Shown here: positions 7,429-50,510 of the stretch, one piece after another
Numbering within the stretch: position 1 is the first letter of the stretch
How the letters are laid out: every line of letters starts with the position of its first letter
The notes under the pieces: generated by a model
What the model saw: only the letters and a program-made list of their open reading frames with translations
Told to the model about the DNA's origin: nothing
Databases searched by the model: none
Translations under genes and position numbers: made by a program
DNA from: a virus
Virus record (IMG/VR): IMGVR_UViG_3300047578_000001
Location: 1-54,704 of that record
Length of the DNA: 54,704 nt
Reading direction: 5' to 3' (one strand)

Positions 7429-7501
7429 GGACGTCTAGCCCAACGGCAGAGGCAACGCATTCAAGATGCGTTCAGTAAGGGTTCGAATCCCTTGTCGTCC
7501 A
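7429..7501 (+). tRNA. tRNA-Leu(CAA) with short variable loop
   Basis: Acceptor GGACGTC pairs with GTCGTCC (one T-T mismatch). T arm AAGGG-TTCGAAT-CCCTT; anticodon stem ACGCA/TGCGT with loop TTCAAGA gives anticodon CAA (codon UUG). The variable region is only 5 nt although bacterial tRNA-Leu is normally class II with a long arm. Discriminator A; no CCA encoded. It stands alone in the early operon, upstream of lsr2. Confidence 0.85.
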
Positions 7502-7539
7502 CTCCTAAAATCACAACAAAAATTGAAACGGAGAAAGTC

Positions 7540-14587: not shown

Positions 14588-15679
14588 GTGAGGATCGGAG
14601 ACATCTTCGATCCGGACTTGCTGTTGGACATGGTGAACGAGGGGATGGTTCGCATTCAGTTCCACCCCTCGTTTCCGTTGTGTATCGCTACCTACACCAA
14701 GGATGCGGTCGTCAAGCGGGAATGGAACCCGGTTACCACAGCATGTCGCGGATTGATCTGGCACGAAAAGACCGGGGAAGTTCTCGCACGACCCTTCCCC
14801 AAGTTCTTCAACCTGGGTGAGCCTGGGGCTCGTGTGGACTTCGAAGCGCAGGTAGAAGTTACCGACAAGATGGATGGCTCTCTCGGGATTGGGTATGTCT
14901 GGGAGGGTAAGTGCTACGTCGCCACCAAGGGAAGTTTCGACAGTCCCCAAGCCATCGAAGGTATTCGAATCCTTCACAAGTACTACCCCGATTGGCTTCC
15001 TCCTGAGGGTGTAACCCCCTTGTGGGAGATCATCTACCCCGAGAACAGGATCGTCCTGGACTACGGAGATGCTCGTTACCTCGCCCTGATCGATGGCATT
15101 GAAATCAAGACAGGTAAGACCTACAACCCGGATGGTATGGAAGACAACGGCTTGTGGTCTTCGTGGAACGGTGCAGCCGTGAACCTGACGTGGTACTTCA
15201 CACTCGGTGAGGTTGTATCGGCGTTGCCCCGACAGAACGCAGAGGGTTTTGTCGTGAGGTACCTGGACACCGACGAGCGAGTCAAGATCAAGCAGCAGGA
15301 TTACATCGACAAGCACAAGCTGGTCTTCAACCTGTCCGAGAAGACTATCTGGGAATCCCTGAAGGATGGAAGGTTCGACGAGTACAAGAAGGGAATGCCC
15401 GACGAGTTCCATGAATGGATGGACATCACGGCCTCCCCATTTCTCCAAAAATTTCAGGACCACATTACGCTTGTCGAAGAGACTCGATTTATCCCTGAGG
15501 TAGATGAGTTGTTTGAGAAGGGCGACAGGTCGTCCCGTAAGAGCTTGGCTCAGATGACTAGGGATGCGCCGCGATGGGTCCAGAAGGTTTTGTGGTGCAT
15601 GTGGGACGGAATGGACTACACCGAGTACATCTACAAGCAGTTCGAGCCGAAGGGACAGACGAAGGTGGCTAAACCATGA
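14588..15679 (+). CDS. rnlA: T4 Rnl1-like RNA ligase (363 aa)
   Basis: ATP-dependent RNA ligase that seals 3'-OH/5'-phosphate RNA ends through a lysyl-AMP. Visible: TACRGLIWHEKTGEVLARPFPKFFN before the active site, motif I KMDGS with Lys94 as the probable nucleophile, ATKGSF (motif III region), LWEIIYPENRIV, EGFVVRY (motif IV) and KIKQ (motif V). The length fits the T4 RnlA family. GTG start just after the previous gene. With the kinase/phosphatase at 15861 it forms a tRNA-repair pair like T4 RnlA/PseT. Confidence 0.92.
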   Translation: MRIGDIFDPDLLLDMVNEGMVRIQFHPSFPLCIATYTKDAVVKREWNPVTTACRGLIWHEKTGEVLARPFPKFFNLGEPGARVDFEAQVEVTDKMDGSLGIGYVWEGKCYVATKGSFDSPQAIEGIRILHKYYPDWLPPEGVTPLWEIIYPENRIVLDYGDARYLALIDGIEIKTGKTYNPDGMEDNGLWSSWNGAAVNLTWYFTLGEVVSALPRQNAEGFVVRYLDTDERVKIKQQDYIDKHKLVFNLSEKTIWESLKDGRFDEYKKGMPDEFHEWMDITASPFLQKFQDHITLVEETRFIPEVDELFEKGDRSSRKSLAQMTRDAPRWVQKVLWCMWDGMDYTEYIYKQFEPKGQTKVAKP

Positions 15680-15864
15680 ACATTCCCAGCCCGTGTGACT
15701 GCGGGTTCTCCGAGGATGACCTGGAGTTCTGTTTCAACGGAATGATTCACTCGGATCTGTTCCGTAGGATCATCGAGACTCCGTGTAACTGCGTTTGTCA
15801 TGGCACTGATGTGGCTCTGGAGTTCCCAGTACCACTCAAGGAACTGGAGTTGGTAGCAGCATGA
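15676..15864 (+). CDS. Cys-rich small protein between ligase and kinase (62 aa)
   Basis: Overlaps both neighbours (ATGA at each end), so it is translated with the repair enzymes. Cys pairs near the start (CDCG) and CNCVCHG mid-protein suggest one metal site. Possible accessory factor of the repair pair; no family recognised. Confidence 0.65.
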   Translation: MNIPSPCDCGFSEDDLEFCFNGMIHSDLFRRIIETPCNCVCHGTDVALEFPVPLKELELVAA

Positions 15865-16787
15865 ACTGTCTAGTAATCTGTGTGGGGATTCCCGGATCGG
15901 GGAAGACCACCTTCGCACGGGAGATGGTGGCAAGTCTCCCGGCTGGTGAAGCCGTGGCCATCTCCAGGGACGACCTCAGGGTGACCCTGTACGGAACCAA
16001 GCTGGGTCTGACCTCGGAGCAGGAGAACGAGATCACCGCCTTGGAACACAGCATGATTGAGAAGGCTCTCAGCCGTGGCCTTGTGGTGATTGTCCACGAC
16101 TGCAACCTGAAGACTGCGTACCGCCGGCCACTGGCCTTGATCGCAGAACGTCTTGGTGTCGAGTGGTGTCAGGTAGATTTCACCTGGGTTCCATTGGAAA
16201 TCTGCTTGGAAAGGAACTCCAAGCGTGAACACCAAGTTCCGGAAGAAGTAATCCGCAACATGTACCAGCGCTACATCACTCCGCTTAACGGCAAGACTCC
16301 GGTTGAGCCTGACGTGCGGGGTAAGTTCACGATCCCCTCGCATGAGCTGTACGTGCCGGACACGTCCTTGCCAGACGCGGTGCTGGTGGACATCGATGGG
16401 ACTGTGGCTCTCCACGAGGGTGTGAGGGGTCCGTACGACACCTCCAGGTACCACCTGGACAAGCCCAACCTCCCGATCATCGACATGATTCGACACGAGT
16501 ACTACGATCTAGGAAACAAGATCGTGTTTGGCTCTGGTCGGAGCGACAAGTTCTATGGTGTGACCGAGGAGTGGCTGTATCAGGAAGTCAAGGTTCCGAT
16601 TGCCGGGTTGTTCATGCGTCCCGAAGGTGATGGTCGCAACGATGCGGTCGTGAAGCTGGAACTCTTCGACAAGCACATCAGGAACAACTGGAACATCAAG
16701 CGAGCATACGACGACCGCAACAGGGTTGTTGCTGCTTACCGTTCCATTGGATTGACCGTGCTTCAGGTAGCGGAAGGAAACTTCTAG
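15861..16787 (+). CDS. pseT: T4 Pnkp-like polynucleotide 5'-kinase/3'-phosphatase (308 aa)
   Basis: Heals broken RNA ends before ligation. N-terminal kinase: P-loop GIPGSGKT at residues 9-16, SRDDLR near 35-40, and a lid with ERNSKREHQVP. C-terminal HAD-type phosphatase: DIDGTVA with catalytic Asp177 and Asp179, FGSGRSD and a final YDDRN acidic motif. Length matches T4 Pnkp (301 aa). Kinase then phosphatase order is as in T4. Together with two RNA ligases and phage tRNAs this points to repair of tRNAs cut by host anticodon nucleases. Confidence 0.93.
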   Translation: MNCLVICVGIPGSGKTTFAREMVASLPAGEAVAISRDDLRVTLYGTKLGLTSEQENEITALEHSMIEKALSRGLVVIVHDCNLKTAYRRPLALIAERLGVEWCQVDFTWVPLEICLERNSKREHQVPEEVIRNMYQRYITPLNGKTPVEPDVRGKFTIPSHELYVPDTSLPDAVLVDIDGTVALHEGVRGPYDTSRYHLDKPNLPIIDMIRHEYYDLGNKIVFGSGRSDKFYGVTEEWLYQEVKVPIAGLFMRPEGDGRNDAVVKLELFDKHIRNNWNIKRAYDDRNRVVAAYRSIGLTVLQVAEGNF

Positions 16788-40223: not shown

Positions 40224-40577
40224 TTAGTTCCTACGGATGATATAGTCAGTGTGGGCAGTTGTGTTGGACCCGTTGTACCTACGGGGCTTACCAATAATGG
40301 ACCACCTCACACCAAGCCACTCGACCTGGGCCTGAGCCCCGATCACCATAGTGAAAGACCTCGGAAGCCTGAGACGATAAACCTGCTCGGACTCGAACCC
40401 CTCGTTGTCCTGCTCGGCACGGCGCGCAGAAGTACCAGACTGCGCAGCCAACTGAACGGCTGCGATGGTTTCTACTCCTGTTGGCCCTGCCTTGGTGATT
40501 GTATTTCCATCCGAGTCGGTAGTCTCGATCTCTTGGTAGATGGTTACTATCTCTCGTCCTGTGTCTAGAAGGCTCAT
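40224..40577 (-). CDS. Head-tail stopper-like protein (117 aa)
   Basis: ATG overlaps the adaptor stop (ATGA). Beta-rich (REIVTIYQEIET ... VQLAAQSG ... VEWLGVRWSIIGKP), typical of neck stopper proteins such as SPP1 gp16. Confidence 0.78.
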   Translation of the reverse strand: MSLLDTGREIVTIYQEIETTDSDGNTITKAGPTGVETIAAVQLAAQSGTSARRAEQDNEGFESEQVYRLRLPRSFTMVIGAQAQVEWLGVRWSIIGKPRRYNGSNTTAHTDYIIRRN

Positions 40578-40996
40578 GCTGGCCAACTCCCAATATCTTC
40601 CCACGGGTACGGTGGGTAACAACGTCCTGGGTAAGGACCGATATATGGCCGGATGACATAAGCTCCCGCGCGGACACCCAGAAGTGCCCACTCGGCTGCC
40701 AAGATGTCGATACGCCCCGAGGCGACCTTGACACTGATCTGGTAGGAGTAGTTGCCATCTGTTTCAGCGGTGTACCCCTCTGGGTTTCGGATCAGTCGAA
40801 GGATCGCTTCGGCTTCAACCATGATGACTACTTCGACATCCAGGGTTCCGTCTGCCACAAGGGTATCCAGATCAGGAAGCCGGTTACGGATGATTAGCTC
40901 AACGTCGTTCAGGCGGGTCTGTACAATCTGGGTTTCCCCGGCTTCCAGTGGCCTGCCCAGCCGATCGATGACGTCTTGGACTGACGCATAGCTCAC
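40574..40996 (-). CDS. Head-to-tail adaptor (140 aa)
   Basis: SYASVQDVIDRLGRPL start, four-helix core and a conserved VEAEAILRLIRNPEG ... match the Gp19/Gp15-type adaptors that dock on the portal. ATG 40996 after AAGGAG. Confidence 0.85.
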   Translation of the reverse strand: MSYASVQDVIDRLGRPLEAGETQIVQTRLNDVELIIRNRLPDLDTLVADGTLDVEVVIMVEAEAILRLIRNPEGYTAETDGNYSYQISVKVASGRIDILAAEWALLGVRAGAYVIRPYIGPYPGRCYPPYPWEDIGSWPA

Positions 40997-41005
40997 TGGA
41001 ACTCC

Positions 41006-41227
41006 TTAGAACGTGGTGGGACGGAGAACAGAACGAATCAGGGCCATGAAACCGGTCTGGAGATCGGTACGACCAATCGAGGCCCAGCGCTTGTCGGTGT
41101 CCTCGCGGGCAAACACAGCATCCACATGGTCACCCACGAGCTGTGCCAACTCTTTCAGCTCGTTCGCGATACGGAGTTCCTCGTCGGACAGTTCTCGATA
41201 GCCCGTAATGGGCGCAGTCTTAGTCAT
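41006..41227 (-). CDS. acb2: Acb2-like anti-CBASS candidate (73 aa)
   Basis: ITGYRELSDEELRIANELKEL ... DKRWASIGRTDLQTGFMALIRSV..P matches the Acb2/Vs.4 hairpin family: GYR-x-L-S-x-E-E start, long helices, and the (R/K)W-x-x-I-x-x-T-x-L-Q-x-G-x-M-A-L-x-R end. Known members form hexamers that trap cyclic di- and trinucleotides, disarming CBASS. As in several phages, it lies by the capsid genes. ATG sits in the ATGACTAA overlap with gene 41220. Not tested; assignment rests on pattern recognition. Confidence 0.72.
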   Translation of the reverse strand: MTKTAPITGYRELSDEELRIANELKELAQLVGDHVDAVFAREDTDKRWASIGRTDLQTGFMALIRSVLRPTTF

Positions 41228-41408
41228 TGGTTTCTTTCTGCTTGGGGGGACGACCCCGCTTCTTGGGCGCAACAGGCCCTGAGATCGTCTGTACGGACTC
41301 GGGAACCTCTTTGAGGTAATACCACCCGTCTTGCTCTACTAGGCGCTTAGCGGTCTTCTCAGAGGCCTCTACGACCACACCGTTGCCACTTCGGATCTTA
41401 ACTCCCAT
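41220..41408 (-). CDS. Small head-cassette protein with AT-hook-like tail (62 aa)
   Basis: ATG 41408 overlaps the glycosyltransferase end. Small beta domain (VKIRSGNGVVVEASE ... DGWYYLKEV) then a basic KKRGRPPKQK tail like an AT hook. Proteins of this shape are common between capsid and adaptor genes. Confidence 0.72.
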   Translation of the reverse strand: MGVKIRSGNGVVVEASEKTAKRLVEQDGWYYLKEVPESVQTISGPVAPKKRGRPPKQKETND

Positions 41409-42363
41409 CGACAAGCCTTTCGAGTTCGGAGACCCAGGCCAACATTTCGACCTTGGGATCTAGTTCTGCCGACCTCTTCAAGGCAAGCTCGGAAGCTGCC
41501 TCCCACTCCTCGGGTTGCAAGAGTCGTCGGATTTCGGATTCATACGCGTCCAGATCATCACGGTCAACAAAGATGCCGTGTTCACCTTGTGACTCCAGGA
41601 GTCCCAGAGTTGGGTGGCAAATAACCGGAATCCCCGAGGCGTTTGCCTCGACACCAGCCATACCATACGACTCGTAAACCGAGGGCATCAGGAGAATCTT
41701 GGTCTTGGACCACACCTCATCACGCATCTTGTCTGTGTGCTTGACGAAGTCCACGTTGTTCAAGTCTGGGGGTGGCATGATCTGTGTGCCATGTCCTCCT
41801 TCGACCGCCAGGAACTCCACATCTGGCATTCGACGCGCAAGCGCATACAGGATCTGTGAACCCTTGTGTTCGTTCAGGTTGACCAGGGTCACCTTGTTAC
41901 CAGGAATCGTCCTGTGCTGGTCTGGGAACACAGGGGGATGAACAATCATGGATCGCATCCCTAGGCGTTCTAGTTTATATTTCAACCATTCCGAGTTGAA
42001 CACCACGAACTCTGGCTGTAGGTCGAACACCTGTTCCACGCCGTGCATGTCATTGTGGCACAAGAAGACCAGTGGAATTCCCATCTTCTTGGCGATGTTG
42101 TTCGCACGGATCGTGTTATCGTGGTGGGTGATGATCACATCAGGCTTCCACGTGATGATATTCTGTCGTGCATAGATAATGTTGGTGACGATAACCTCTA
42201 CACCCTCGTACTCATAATGTACCGGGGCTTCGGGCATCACCGTTGCGAAGACCACAACTTCATGGCCTGCCGCAAGAAGTTCCTTCGTCATGGAGTGGAG
42301 CATCGTTTCGGAGCCCGCACACCTAAAAGGAACGTAGAAATGTACTAGAACTGCTACACGCAT
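41398..42363 (-). CDS. GT-B (family 4) glycosyltransferase in head cassette (321 aa)
   Basis: MRVAVLVHFYVPFRCAGSETMLHSMTKELLAAGHEVVVFA is the GT-B N-terminal Rossmann fold; the C-terminal MPSVYESYGMAGVEANASGIPVI is the GT4 E-x7-E sugar-nucleotide site. ATG 42363 has AAGGAG 6 nt upstream; the 8 codons before it lack support. Lying between major capsid and adaptor, it probably glycosylates capsid or tail proteins. Confidence 0.88.
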   Translation of the reverse strand: MRVAVLVHFYVPFRCAGSETMLHSMTKELLAAGHEVVVFATVMPEAPVHYEYEGVEVIVTNIIYARQNIITWKPDVIITHHDNTIRANNIAKKMGIPLVFLCHNDMHGVEQVFDLQPEFVVFNSEWLKYKLERLGMRSMIVHPPVFPDQHRTIPGNKVTLVNLNEHKGSQILYALARRMPDVEFLAVEGGHGTQIMPPPDLNNVDFVKHTDKMRDEVWSKTKILLMPSVYESYGMAGVEANASGIPVICHPTLGLLESQGEHGIFVDRDDLDAYESEIRRLLQPEEWEAASELALKRSAELDPKVEMLAWVSELERLVDGS

Positions 42364-42385
42364 TGGCGGACTCCTTGTACGCCCC

Positions 42386-42416
42386 AAGGAGGGGACCCGA
42401 AGGCCCCCTCCTCAAG
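42386..42416 (-). terminator. Hairpin after capsid gene (UUCG loop)
   Basis: GAGGAGGGGGCC-TTCG-GGTCCCCTCCTT read leftward: strong stem, one mismatch, no U-run. It ends the abundant capsid message and probably limits glycosyltransferase expression. Confidence 0.65.
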
Positions 42417-42424
42417 ACTATGGA

Positions 42425-43423
42425 TTAGCTACCCGATGGGTTCGTGAACTTCACGAAGCCGTCCAGGTTACCCACGATCCAACCGAAGGTTACCTCGATC
42501 AGCAGGGCAATCTGGTTGGTCTGCCACATGGAGATGCTCGACACACCATCCGTCAGTGTGGCCTGATCCGAAATCTTGATTCGGACCTCGTCCGCAAAGC
42601 CCCATCGGAGCTGGGAGAAGTCTCCACCAATGATCTGGGTCGTGCTGGCCGTAGCCGCACCCAGGTCACCACGAACAGCCTTGCCGTACTCCGCAGGGAA
42701 GCCGAGGATGTTGCCTCGGGTCGCCGTGAAGTTGATCCCAGCCGGGTTCACCAGGTTACCGTTCGCATCGCGCTCGGCACCCTCACGAATCAGGCGTGCA
42801 CGGAATCGGGTGTCAACAGCCCAACCATCGAAGTCCGTCTCGGGGTCAATCATCTCGTAGCCCGCGATCAGCTCGTCATACAGGTTCCCAGGACCCGGCA
42901 CGGTGTCCAGGTTCACCACGTTGGTGGTGTTGTTGAGAACGTTGGTAGACGTAATACCCTGAAGCGCAGCTCCCGTCAGAGGCTGCTTACCGTGGAAGAC
43001 CGCGAGGTCGATACCACGCCCGATCGCGAGAGCCATATCCGACTGAATCTTGCTGTAGAACCCCTGCGGGTTGGTACGAGCAAACTCCTCGGACACGGTC
43101 ACGATCGTGGCCAGCTTGATCGGGCTGAAGGACTGGGTATCCCACGCAACACCCGACAGTGGCTTGGTACCACCCTCACGGAGTGCGTTGGTCGTACCAG
43201 TACCAACCTGGCCAACCTCGGGACGCTTCGTCTGAACCGGGATAACCGTCTCACCGTACGAGACGGGGATACGCTCACCCAGACGAAGCACAAGCGAAGT
43301 CTCCTGCGCCTGCTCGAAAATAGCCCCTACGATCTCTGGGGGCAGCAGGTCATCCGGAACATACGCAAGACGACCCTGGTGGTCGTTGGTAGTATTCGGA
43401 GCAAGCTCATTGATCATTGCCAT
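42425..43423 (-). CDS. Major capsid protein, HK97 fold (332 aa)
   Basis: Follows scaffold, as expected. LLPPEIVGAIFEQAQETSLVLRLGERIPV and the later GGDFSQLRWGFADEVRIKISDQA are typical HK97-type capsid segments in actinobacteriophages. No visible N-terminal delta domain, fitting the separate scaffold gene. Confidence 0.92.
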   Translation of the reverse strand: MAMINELAPNTTNDHQGRLAYVPDDLLPPEIVGAIFEQAQETSLVLRLGERIPVSYGETVIPVQTKRPEVGQVGTGTTNALREGGTKPLSGVAWDTQSFSPIKLATIVTVSEEFARTNPQGFYSKIQSDMALAIGRGIDLAVFHGKQPLTGAALQGITSTNVLNNTTNVVNLDTVPGPGNLYDELIAGYEMIDPETDFDGWAVDTRFRARLIREGAERDANGNLVNPAGINFTATRGNILGFPAEYGKAVRGDLGAATASTTQIIGGDFSQLRWGFADEVRIKISDQATLTDGVSSISMWQTNQIALLIEVTFGWIVGNLDGFVKFTNPSGS

Positions 43424-49376: not shown

Positions 49377-49420
49377 GATGATCCATTCTGAGTTCTTAGC
49401 GATGACTGAAACTATCGACG

Positions 49421-49493
49421 TGCGGGAGGCGGGACTCGAACCCACGGCTTCCTGTTCCCAAAACAGGCACTCTGCCTACTGAGCTACACCCAC
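49421..49493 (-). tRNA. tRNA-Pro(TGG)
   Basis: Acceptor GTGGGTG/CTCCCGC with one mismatch, D stem GCTC/GAGT, anticodon stem CCTGT/ACAGG with loop TTTGGGA (anticodon TGG), T arm GTGGG-TTCGAGT-CCCGC. Discriminator A, no CCA encoded. Confidence 0.9.
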
Positions 49494-49513
49494 AGCGTGT
49501 TCATTTTTGGTGC

Positions 49514-49549
49514 TGTTCAGAAAACTTGAACACACAGCTTTTCTGAACA
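49514..49549 (-). repeat. 11-bp inverted repeat between tRNAs
   Basis: TGTTCAGAAAA and TTTTCTGAACA are perfect complements around 14 nt. Lies between tRNA-Trp and tRNA-Pro; a likely RNA-processing stem or weak terminator. Confidence 0.6.
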
Positions 49550-49624
49550 TGGCGGGGCCAGGAGGACTCGAACCTCCAACCGCGCTTTTGGAGAGCGCTA
49601 TTTTTCCACCTAAACTATGTCCCC
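49550..49624 (-). tRNA. tRNA-Trp(CCA)
   Basis: Acceptor GGGGACA/TGGCCCC (one mismatch), anticodon stem GCGCT/AGCGC with loop CTCCAAA (anticodon CCA), T arm GGAGG-TTCGAGT-CCTCC, discriminator G and encoded 3' CCA. Confidence 0.93.
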
Positions 49625-49626
49625 GT

Positions 49627-49713
49627 TTACTCTTCTTTGTCGTTATAACACTCACACCAGGCTGCTAGTCTGAGACAATCCGGGCAATAGAATATTTCTA
49701 TCTTGTCTGGCAC
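49627..49713 (-). CDS. Zinc-ribbon micro-protein in tRNA cluster (28 aa)
   Basis: GTG overlaps the upstream stop (TAGTG). (M)PDKIEIFYCPDC ... WCECYNDKEE has a CxxC and CxC pair. The start resembles the plus-strand micro-gene at 30864. Too short for usual gene finders. Confidence 0.6.
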   Translation of the reverse strand: MPDKIEIFYCPDCLRLAAWCECYNDKEE

Positions 49714-49787
49714 TATGAACGCTTACCCTCACAGGTACACGTCTGGGTCGTGCCGCCACAGCCGCCCATGCACACCTCGTACTTCAA
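49713..49787 (-). CDS. Cys-rich micro-protein in tRNA cluster (24 aa)
   Basis: TTG start with GGAGG 5 nt upstream. Sequence (M)KYEVCMGGCGGTTQTCTC has four Cys in 15 residues, suited to one zinc. Coupled to the next micro-gene. Confidence 0.6.
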   Translation of the reverse strand: MKYEVCMGGCGGTTQTCTCEGKRS

Positions 49788-49806
49788 TGTAACCTCCGTT
49801 ATTTGG

Positions 49807-49882
49807 TGGTCGGGAAGACGGGACTTGAACCCGCTTGGGTCGGCTTCACAAACCGATACCTCGTCCACTTCGGTATCTTCCC
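49807..49882 (-). tRNA. tRNA-His(GTG)
   Basis: Anticodon stem TCGGT/GCCGA with loop TTGTGAA (anticodon GTG), T arm GCGGG-TTCAAGT-CCCGT, variable loop 5 nt, encoded ACCA end. The acceptor fits GGGAAG/CTTCCC; the next pair is unclear, and the usual G-1:C73 His identity is not evident. Its first base directly follows the CCA of tRNA-Gln. Confidence 0.85.
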
Positions 49883-49957
49883 TGGCTGCTGATTCACGAT
49901 TCGAACATGAAATTGAAGGGTCAGAACCTTCCGTGTTGCCGGTTACACCAATCAGCA
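49883..49957 (-). tRNA. tRNA-Gln(CTG)
   Basis: Perfect acceptor TGCTGAT/ATCAGCA, D stem GTGT/ACAC, anticodon stem GAAGG/CCTTC with loop TTCTGAC (anticodon CTG), T arm TCATG/CGTGA, discriminator G, encoded CCA that abuts tRNA-His. Confidence 0.9.
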
Positions 49958-50025
49958 TTGCCTGTATTCCTCGCACACGGACCCCCGGAATCAAACGTTC
50001 CGGCTGGTAACAGTACCGTGCTGTG
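49958..50025 (-). other. Structured spacer between tRNA-Lys and tRNA-Gln
   Basis: No gene seen. The RNA could fold as CACGG/CCGTG enclosing CCGGAA-CGTTTGA-TTCCGG, resembling a reduced tRNA without D arm. Perhaps a tRNA remnant or processing element. Confidence 0.4.
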
Positions 50026-50101
50026 TGGTCATCCATCCTGGACTTGAACCAGGAACCTTGAGGTTAAGAGCCCCATGCTCTACCACTTGAGCTAATGGAC
50101 G
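50026..50101 (-). tRNA. tRNA-Lys(CTT)
   Basis: Acceptor CGTCCAT/ATGGATG, D stem GCTC/GAGC, anticodon loop CTCTTAA (anticodon CTT), T arm CCTGG-TTCAAGT-CCAGG, discriminator A, encoded CCA. Confidence 0.93.
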
Positions 50102-50105
50102 CTTG

Positions 50106-50179
50106 CTGGGATACTCGGACTCGAACCGAGAACTGCGACATTAACAGTGTCGTCTTCTGCCAAATTGAAGTACATCCCA
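50106..50179 (-). tRNA. tRNA-Asn(GTT)
   Basis: Acceptor TGGGATG/TATCCCA (last pair G-T), D stem CTTC/GAAG, anticodon stem CGACA/TGTCG with loop CTGTTAA (anticodon GTT), T arm CTCGG-TTCGAGT-CCGAG. No CCA encoded. Confidence 0.92.
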
Positions 50180-50244
50180 TTACAGGCCACTCGATACATC
50201 ACAGTGAAGCTGCTAGTGCGGCCGTGCGACATCGCTGGACCTAG

Positions 50245-50320
50245 TCGCCCATGAAGGATTTGAACCTCCGCAAACCCAGGTTCGTAGCCTGGTGCTCTCT
50301 CCGGACTGAGCTAATGAGCG
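50245..50320 (-). tRNA. tRNA-Arg(ACG)
   Basis: Acceptor CGCTCAT/ATGGGCG, D stem GCTC/GAGC, anticodon stem CCAGG/CCTGG with loop CTACGAA (anticodon ACG, needing A34 to inosine editing), T arm GGAGG-TTCAAAT-CCTTC, discriminator A, no CCA. Confidence 0.92.
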
Positions 50321-50326
50321 ATTGTA

Positions 50327-50416
50327 CTAACAGTGGCAGGGCATCCCACACTTCTGGCAGTTCGGGTTGCGGGGGCTGTCACACAAACAAATATGGGAAC
50401 CGTCTCGAAAATTCAT
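50327..50416 (-). CDS. Cys-rich micro-protein in tRNA cluster (29 aa)
   Basis: Between tRNA-Arg and tRNA-Leu. ATG 50416 (or 50422) gives MNFRDGSHICLCDSPRNP then CQKCGMPCHC: seven Cys and one His in the last 20 residues, enough for two metals. Ribosome site weak. Confidence 0.55.
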   Translation of the reverse strand: MNFRDGSHICLCDSPRNPNCQKCGMPCHC

Positions 50417-50436
50417 CCTCATCCAATCGTTGGTTG

Positions 50437-50510
50437 TACCCCTCCGCAGATTCGAACTGCGATCATCTCGGGTCTGAGCCGAGCGCCTCTGCCAATTGGA
50501 CTAGAGGGGC
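50437..50510 (-). tRNA. tRNA-Leu(CAG) with short variable loop
   Basis: Acceptor GCCCCTC/GAGGGGT, anticodon stem CTCGG/CCGAG with loop CTCAGAC (anticodon CAG), variable loop only 5 nt (ATGAT), T arm CGCAG-TTCGAAT-CTGCG, discriminator A. Like the early tRNA-Leu(CAA), it lacks the long arm normal for bacterial tRNA-Leu and shares its D arm type. Confidence 0.85.

Follow-up and report, generated by a model that had tools for sequence, protein, structure and literature searches.

Between the capsid and adaptor genes of a soil phage akin to known mycobacterium phages lies a short open reading frame, and the question that it raises is whether its product is an Acb2-type protein that would counter CBASS from within the head genes, or a protein with another role that happens to sit there. 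The DNA analyzed (hereafter, the window) comprises 54,704 bases and is a virus record of IMG/VR. A preliminary description had placed an Acb2/Vs.4-type gene at 41006–41227, giving the coordinates without the strand. The frame exists, and it is encoded on the minus strand; the plus-strand reading of the same interval is a different frame without meaning. The product (MTKTAPITGYRELSDEELRIANELKELAQLVGDHVDAVFAREDTDKRWASIGRTDLQTGFMALIRSVLRPTTF, 73 aa) contains both of the motifs quoted in that description.

Identification of an Acb2-family protein

The protein matches the Acb2/Tad1 hairpin family of Pfam (PF24729) with 49.3 bits, above the cut-off of 27 (E 5.9e-13), which is the profile search that the preliminary description had proposed as a check. 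When PDB sequences were searched with phmmer, two PaP2 Acb2 sequences (8h2j/8ixz) were found at 1.5e-10, and besides PaP2 Acb2 there was no match with an E-value below 1. No match to the 73-aa protein came from NCBIfam or PADLOC, a result that we weighed neither for nor against Acb2, and its best PHROG (717) is one without known function. To these searches we added a profile made from the Acb2 proteins of seven other phages, with which we searched every stop-to-stop frame of the window that was 30 aa or longer (1,107 frames). Its sole match was the acb2-like ORF (E 1.7e-23); the real protein scored 80.8 bits, against 12.9 for the best of 2,000 shuffles, and the match thus goes far beyond chance.

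An AlphaFold2 monomer model, built with 15 homologues (mean pLDDT 88), shows two long helices (residues 15–40 and 46–68) that run antiparallel after a short N-terminal segment, as in 8h2j/7uq2, the short N-terminal helix of the Acb2 fold not being resolved. The nine best Foldseek matches in the PDB were all Acb2 (8h2x, 8h2j; best 7.1e-5) or T4 Vs.4 (7uq2), and the next one, unrelated, appeared at E 1.2. Vs.4 and Acb2 also rank first in VIA-align (Z 8.2 and 8.1). As other helical hairpins reach Z 7 in that comparison, a high background, the predicted fold alone would be weak evidence; combined with the match at the sequence level, it agrees with Acb2. Profile, sequence and fold agree in bearing out the family assignment, and we annotate 41006–41227 (minus strand) as an acb2-like gene for a PF24729 hairpin protein, a predicted cyclic-oligonucleotide sponge, on the basis of Pfam, phmmer, Foldseek and the dN/dS values given below. 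The connection between the two helices is about 20 residues shorter than that of PaP2. Short forms of this connection are common in the family; we know of no Acb2 with a short connection that has been assayed.

Eight residues (Gly9, Tyr10, Lys25, Thr54, Asp55, Gln57, Thr58 and Arg65) are unchanged in 15 homologues. Upon alignment with the solved proteins, Tyr10 corresponds to T4 Tyr8 and PaP2 Tyr11, Thr54 to T4 Thr68 and Arg65 to T4 Arg79. Lys25 is aligned with PaP2 Lys26, which we take to be a cyclic-dinucleotide contact, so that the contact positions considered (T4 Tyr8 and Thr68, PaP2 Tyr11 and Lys26) are occupied by Tyr10, Thr54 and Lys25. In T4 Acb2, binding of cyclic dinucleotides is abolished or disrupted by substitution Y8A and weakened by T68M (PMC12657218, PMC12657230). 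The ligand-stacking Phe82 of T4 is replaced by Leu68 in the window protein and by Ala in PaP2 (residues counted by hand), and ligand preference may for this reason differ. Judging from the alignment, such a stacking contact is not family-wide, as PaP2, with Ala at that position, still binds.

In a tree of 33 family members (74 columns), the window protein groups firmly with its syntenic relatives. As the deeper branches lack resolution, the tree does not place the origin of the gene and we make no claim on it. When the window protein was used as a tblastn query, matches came from Pseudomonas, Vibrio, Aeromonas and other phages, and no actinobacteriophage match of convincing quality was found.

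Organization of the head gene cassette

The five genes of the cassette considered here lie on the minus strand. In the reading direction, the major capsid protein gene (42425–43423; PF05065, 1.6e-22; phrog_10, 7.9e-55) is followed by a GT4-type glycosyltransferase gene (41398–42387; PF13692, 3.2e-12; phrog_26352, 8.8e-92), a small DUF7302 gene (41220–41414; PF23976, 1.1e-6), acb2 and a head-tail adaptor gene (40574–40996; phrog_137 Ad1, 5.2e-37; PF09355 Gp19/Gp15/Gp42, 4.4e-15). The gene order upholds the proposed placement in a late head-tail cassette. "Between capsid and adaptor" is right for the interval, provided that the glycosyltransferase and DUF7302 genes are counted as intervening between capsid and acb2. 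The acb2 ATG and the DUF7302 stop share 8 nt (ATGACTAA), an overlap which suggests that acb2 is translationally coupled to the DUF7302 gene. As the adaptor gene starts within 9 nt after acb2, this layout on both sides points to a single late operon.

The DUF7302 protein has an AT-hook-like basic tail (KKRGRPPK), and in L011–L014 the small frame before acb2 ends in a similar basic RGRP tail, the remainder being diverged. A "head-tail connector" label for this neighbour (phrog_748) was dropped because the match is weak (3.6e-4). The glycosyltransferase gene follows the capsid gene throughout the lineage, and within the phage collection it matches only TurkishDelight, a Streptomyces phage (42%); its product possibly glycosylates the capsid or has another role in conflict.

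Position of acb2 in other phages

The preliminary description had held the position to be that found in other phages with Acb2, and this is true of some of them. In the Mu-like phages JBD67 and RcapMu, the capsid gene is followed by a small gene, Acb2 and a Mu gp36-type adaptor. In at least 10 of 48 further Acb2 loci sampled from IMG/VR, acb2 is followed by the head-tail adaptor phrog_195, and in several more by a terminase, portal or minor head gene; phrog_195 is also found downstream in 4 of 21 loci from bacterial genomes. As this tally mechanically picked whichever ORF was longest within 350 nt and had no random control, it supports the word "recurrent" and not a rate. In T4, PaP2, Aeromonas phage MQM1 and Xandras the claim does not hold: acb2 lies elsewhere, among early genes or others, several of which serve DNA metabolism. 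The head-gene slot is hence recurrent, not general. As the order capsid, small gene, Acb2, adaptor occurs in at least three phages and with two adaptor families, we suggest that timing with the head genes may be selected.

Among the closest characterized proteins are those of PaP2/PaMx33 (8h2j, 8h2x, 8ixz), which share with the window protein the Pfam domain, the GYR...K...TD.QTG.MA.IR pattern, a C-terminal Phe and the predicted fold, at 41% identity. PaP2 Acb2 is longer (93 aa), as is its helix-helix connection, and in PaP2 the gene is found close to that of the DNA polymerase, on the strand opposite to the capsid gene. JBD67 Acb2 (gp38) belongs to the same subfamily and occupies the same slot, but it has 108 aa and comes from another phage lineage with another adaptor family and without the glycosyltransferase gene. 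In Rhodobacter phage RcapMu, RcapMu44 likewise has PF24729 and the capsid/adaptor slot; it differs in a C-terminal extension and a diverged sequence. T4 Vs.4 (Acb2, 7uq2) shares the fold and the equivalents of Tyr10, Thr54 and Arg65, but it is of a distant subfamily (28% identity) and its gene lies by regB, not by head genes. Tad1 (Thoeris anti-defence 1) has the hairpin domain PF24729 as well, preceded by an N-terminal beta-sheet (PMC12043709) which is absent from the window protein: the latter begins 8 residues before the hairpin motif, and its model contains no strand.

Acb2-family proteins of actinobacteriophages had been reported before, in the cluster E mycobacteriophages (Xandras gp101, BigBubba gp102; PMC11953737) and in Microbacterium phage Statler of cluster EG (gp57, likened here by its description; PMC13348362). 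As first stated, the finding of Acb2 in such a phage is thus not new: a Xandras-type query retrieves 295 phage records, mostly of Mycobacterium and Gordonia, 183 of them Mycobacterium phages. Xandras gp101 passes PF24729. Unlike the window protein, it groups with T4 in the tree (on a long branch with weak support), shares only 12% aligned identity with it and is encoded near SSB and ClpP genes. By sequence, the subfamily of the window protein (PaP2/JBD67) is different from that of Xandras gp101. What is already known is therefore the type of protein, its presence in actinobacteriophages and the head-gene slot (JBD67, RcapMu). What is new is the lineage, the conserved place of the gene among its head genes and a close relative with a clean loss; the PaP2/JBD67 subfamily now includes a soil lineage with kinship to the cluster A mycobacteriophages.

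Conservation and loss of acb2 within the lineage

Relatives of the window phage were gathered by IMG/VR scans. Taking as the lineage the contigs that have its glycosyltransferase together with its adaptor (24, several of them near-duplicates), acb2 is in the same place in 23. Pairwise dN/dS values within the lineage range from 0.02 to 0.25, with neither stops nor frameshifts, and the gene is under strong purifying selection.

The 24th contig, IMGVR_UViG_3300013096_000002 (L132/L192), has a capsid protein 97% and an adaptor 96% identical to those of the window, and exactly 214 bp are missing from it. Alignment of the junction (L132:4470–4520 against window 41005–41223) shows that the missing segment is bounded by two 5-bp CTAAG direct repeats, annotated on the minus strand, one just after the acb2 start (41219–41223) and the second over the acb2 stop codon (41005–41009). 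The junction keeps the DUF7302 stop codon, the AAGGAG ribosome-binding sequence of the adaptor gene and the neighbouring reading frames. This state, seen in one 10.9-kb metagenome contig in which an assembly fault is possible, is most simply a loss of acb2; we read it as a loss and not as a gain because all other members, distant ones included, have the gene. Since L132 lacks exactly acb2, we regard the gene as accessory and not structural. The two contigs provide a natural pair with and without acb2, ready for comparison.

Farther relatives, with capsid proteins about 62–67% identical and including the cultured cluster A mycobacteriophages examined, have no Acb2 in the slot. Their gap between capsid and adaptor genes is mostly of a few hundred bases, and some of them hold a head fibre gene there. 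For one of these phages, Hermia, PF24729 was run against the complete record and found nothing. The gene is thus absent both from L132 and from the cluster A relatives, whereas a head-tail connector or other virion protein would be needed in every member of the lineage.

Host group

That the genome is actinobacteriophage-like, as had been proposed, agrees with a capsid protein up to 67% identical to that of cluster A mycobacteriophages. Clues to the host point from the capsid to phages of Mycobacterium, Gordonia and Rhodococcus, and from the glycosyltransferase to a Streptomyces phage. For lysis the phage has an amidase and a GH25, with no mycolyl esterase among the lysis genes scanned; the GC content is 55%. 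Of 396 genomes sampled from the Actinomycetota, the phylum to which Kutzneria viridogrisea belongs, 29 have a CBASS-type (SMODS) cyclase, so that a CBASS target can exist in the putative host group. PF24729 gave a single match over the cut-off in the same 396 genomes, that of Kutzneria, and hence prophages offer no route to the host. The K. viridogrisea gene (L105:3845–4216) is chromosomal, lies just before a portal gene and probably belongs to a prophage; a SMODS search of that genome found no cyclase.

Proposed function

Very probably, the protein is an anti-CBASS cyclic-oligonucleotide sponge made with the head genes. The hexamer, the binding of ligand and the anti-CBASS effect are carried over from the family, and the late timing from the position of the gene. 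The compact protein, a two-helix hairpin, would by family precedent assemble into a hexamer that binds, without cleaving them, cyclic di- and trinucleotides made by host CBASS CD-NTases; sequestration, not cleavage, is what has been described for the family (PMC12657218, PMC12043709), and a mutant of JBD67, where the gene occupies the same slot, that lacks acb2 has been used to test CBASS (PMC13083879). If acb2 is translated along with the head genes, probably through coupling to the DUF7302 gene, synthesis of the sponge would coincide with the accumulation of capsid and head-assembly proteins; the sponge would keep the alarm nucleotide from its effector, the cell thereby surviving until lysis. 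The prohead protease of Bas13 interacts with a CBASS sensor; in a phage deleted for acb2, escapers have capsid mutations (PMC12409349, PMC10419184). By analogy, triggers of this kind may provide a rationale for late timing in the window phage, and the idea is testable, CBASS being triggerable by head-assembly proteins. A wider proposal, which we regard as rather doubtful, is that Acb2 in the capsid-adaptor slot evolved repeatedly, the sponge being made together with such triggers (head-assembly products, e.g., the prohead protease), whereby inhibitor and trigger would increase in parallel, with the soil lineage as one case.

The sponge might instead act mainly on another nucleotide signal, be it a cyclic oligoadenylate as used by type III CRISPR, a Panoptes decoy or a signal of the Thoeris type. 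In a separate pocket Acb2 binds cA3, and it could affect type III CRISPR (review, PMC12043709), the type III-A CRISPR of Mycobacterium tuberculosis is reported to use cyclic oligoadenylate (PMC6755085), and SMODS cyclases occur in only the 29 of 396 phylum genomes mentioned above. Nevertheless, we consider this unlikely, as the Acb2 proteins for which tests have been described counter CBASS, the beta-sheet that forms part of the Thoeris ligand pocket of Tad1 is absent, and Acb2 triggers Panoptes instead of blocking it.

A head-tail structural or assembly part which shares the hairpin fold by chance and works where it is placed would account for the fixed position in 23 of 24 relatives, the purifying selection and the use of the same slot in unrelated phages. 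It is made very improbable by the relative 96–97% identical that lacks exactly acb2 with its neighbours intact, by cluster A relatives with nothing like acb2 in the slot, by homologues that sit among DNA-metabolism genes, by the conserved ligand-contact residues and by a PHROG devoid of structural annotation. We give hardly any credence to a degenerate or inactive Acb2 kept by hitchhiking or translational coupling alone; although the gene was lost in one relative and Acb2 can be costly in a Panoptes-carrying host (PMC12657218, PMC12657230), dN/dS stays at 0.02–0.25 across the clade without stops or frameshifts, and the ligand residues are invariant.

Other genes of the window

Apart from the head gene cassette, the window contains at 14588–16787 a gene for a T4 Rnl1-type RNA ligase followed by one for a polynucleotide kinase-phosphatase, likely a tRNA-repair pair directed against anticodon nucleases. 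Eight tRNA genes lie in a row on the minus strand (49420–50510), and a tRNA-Leu gene is located at 7429–7502.
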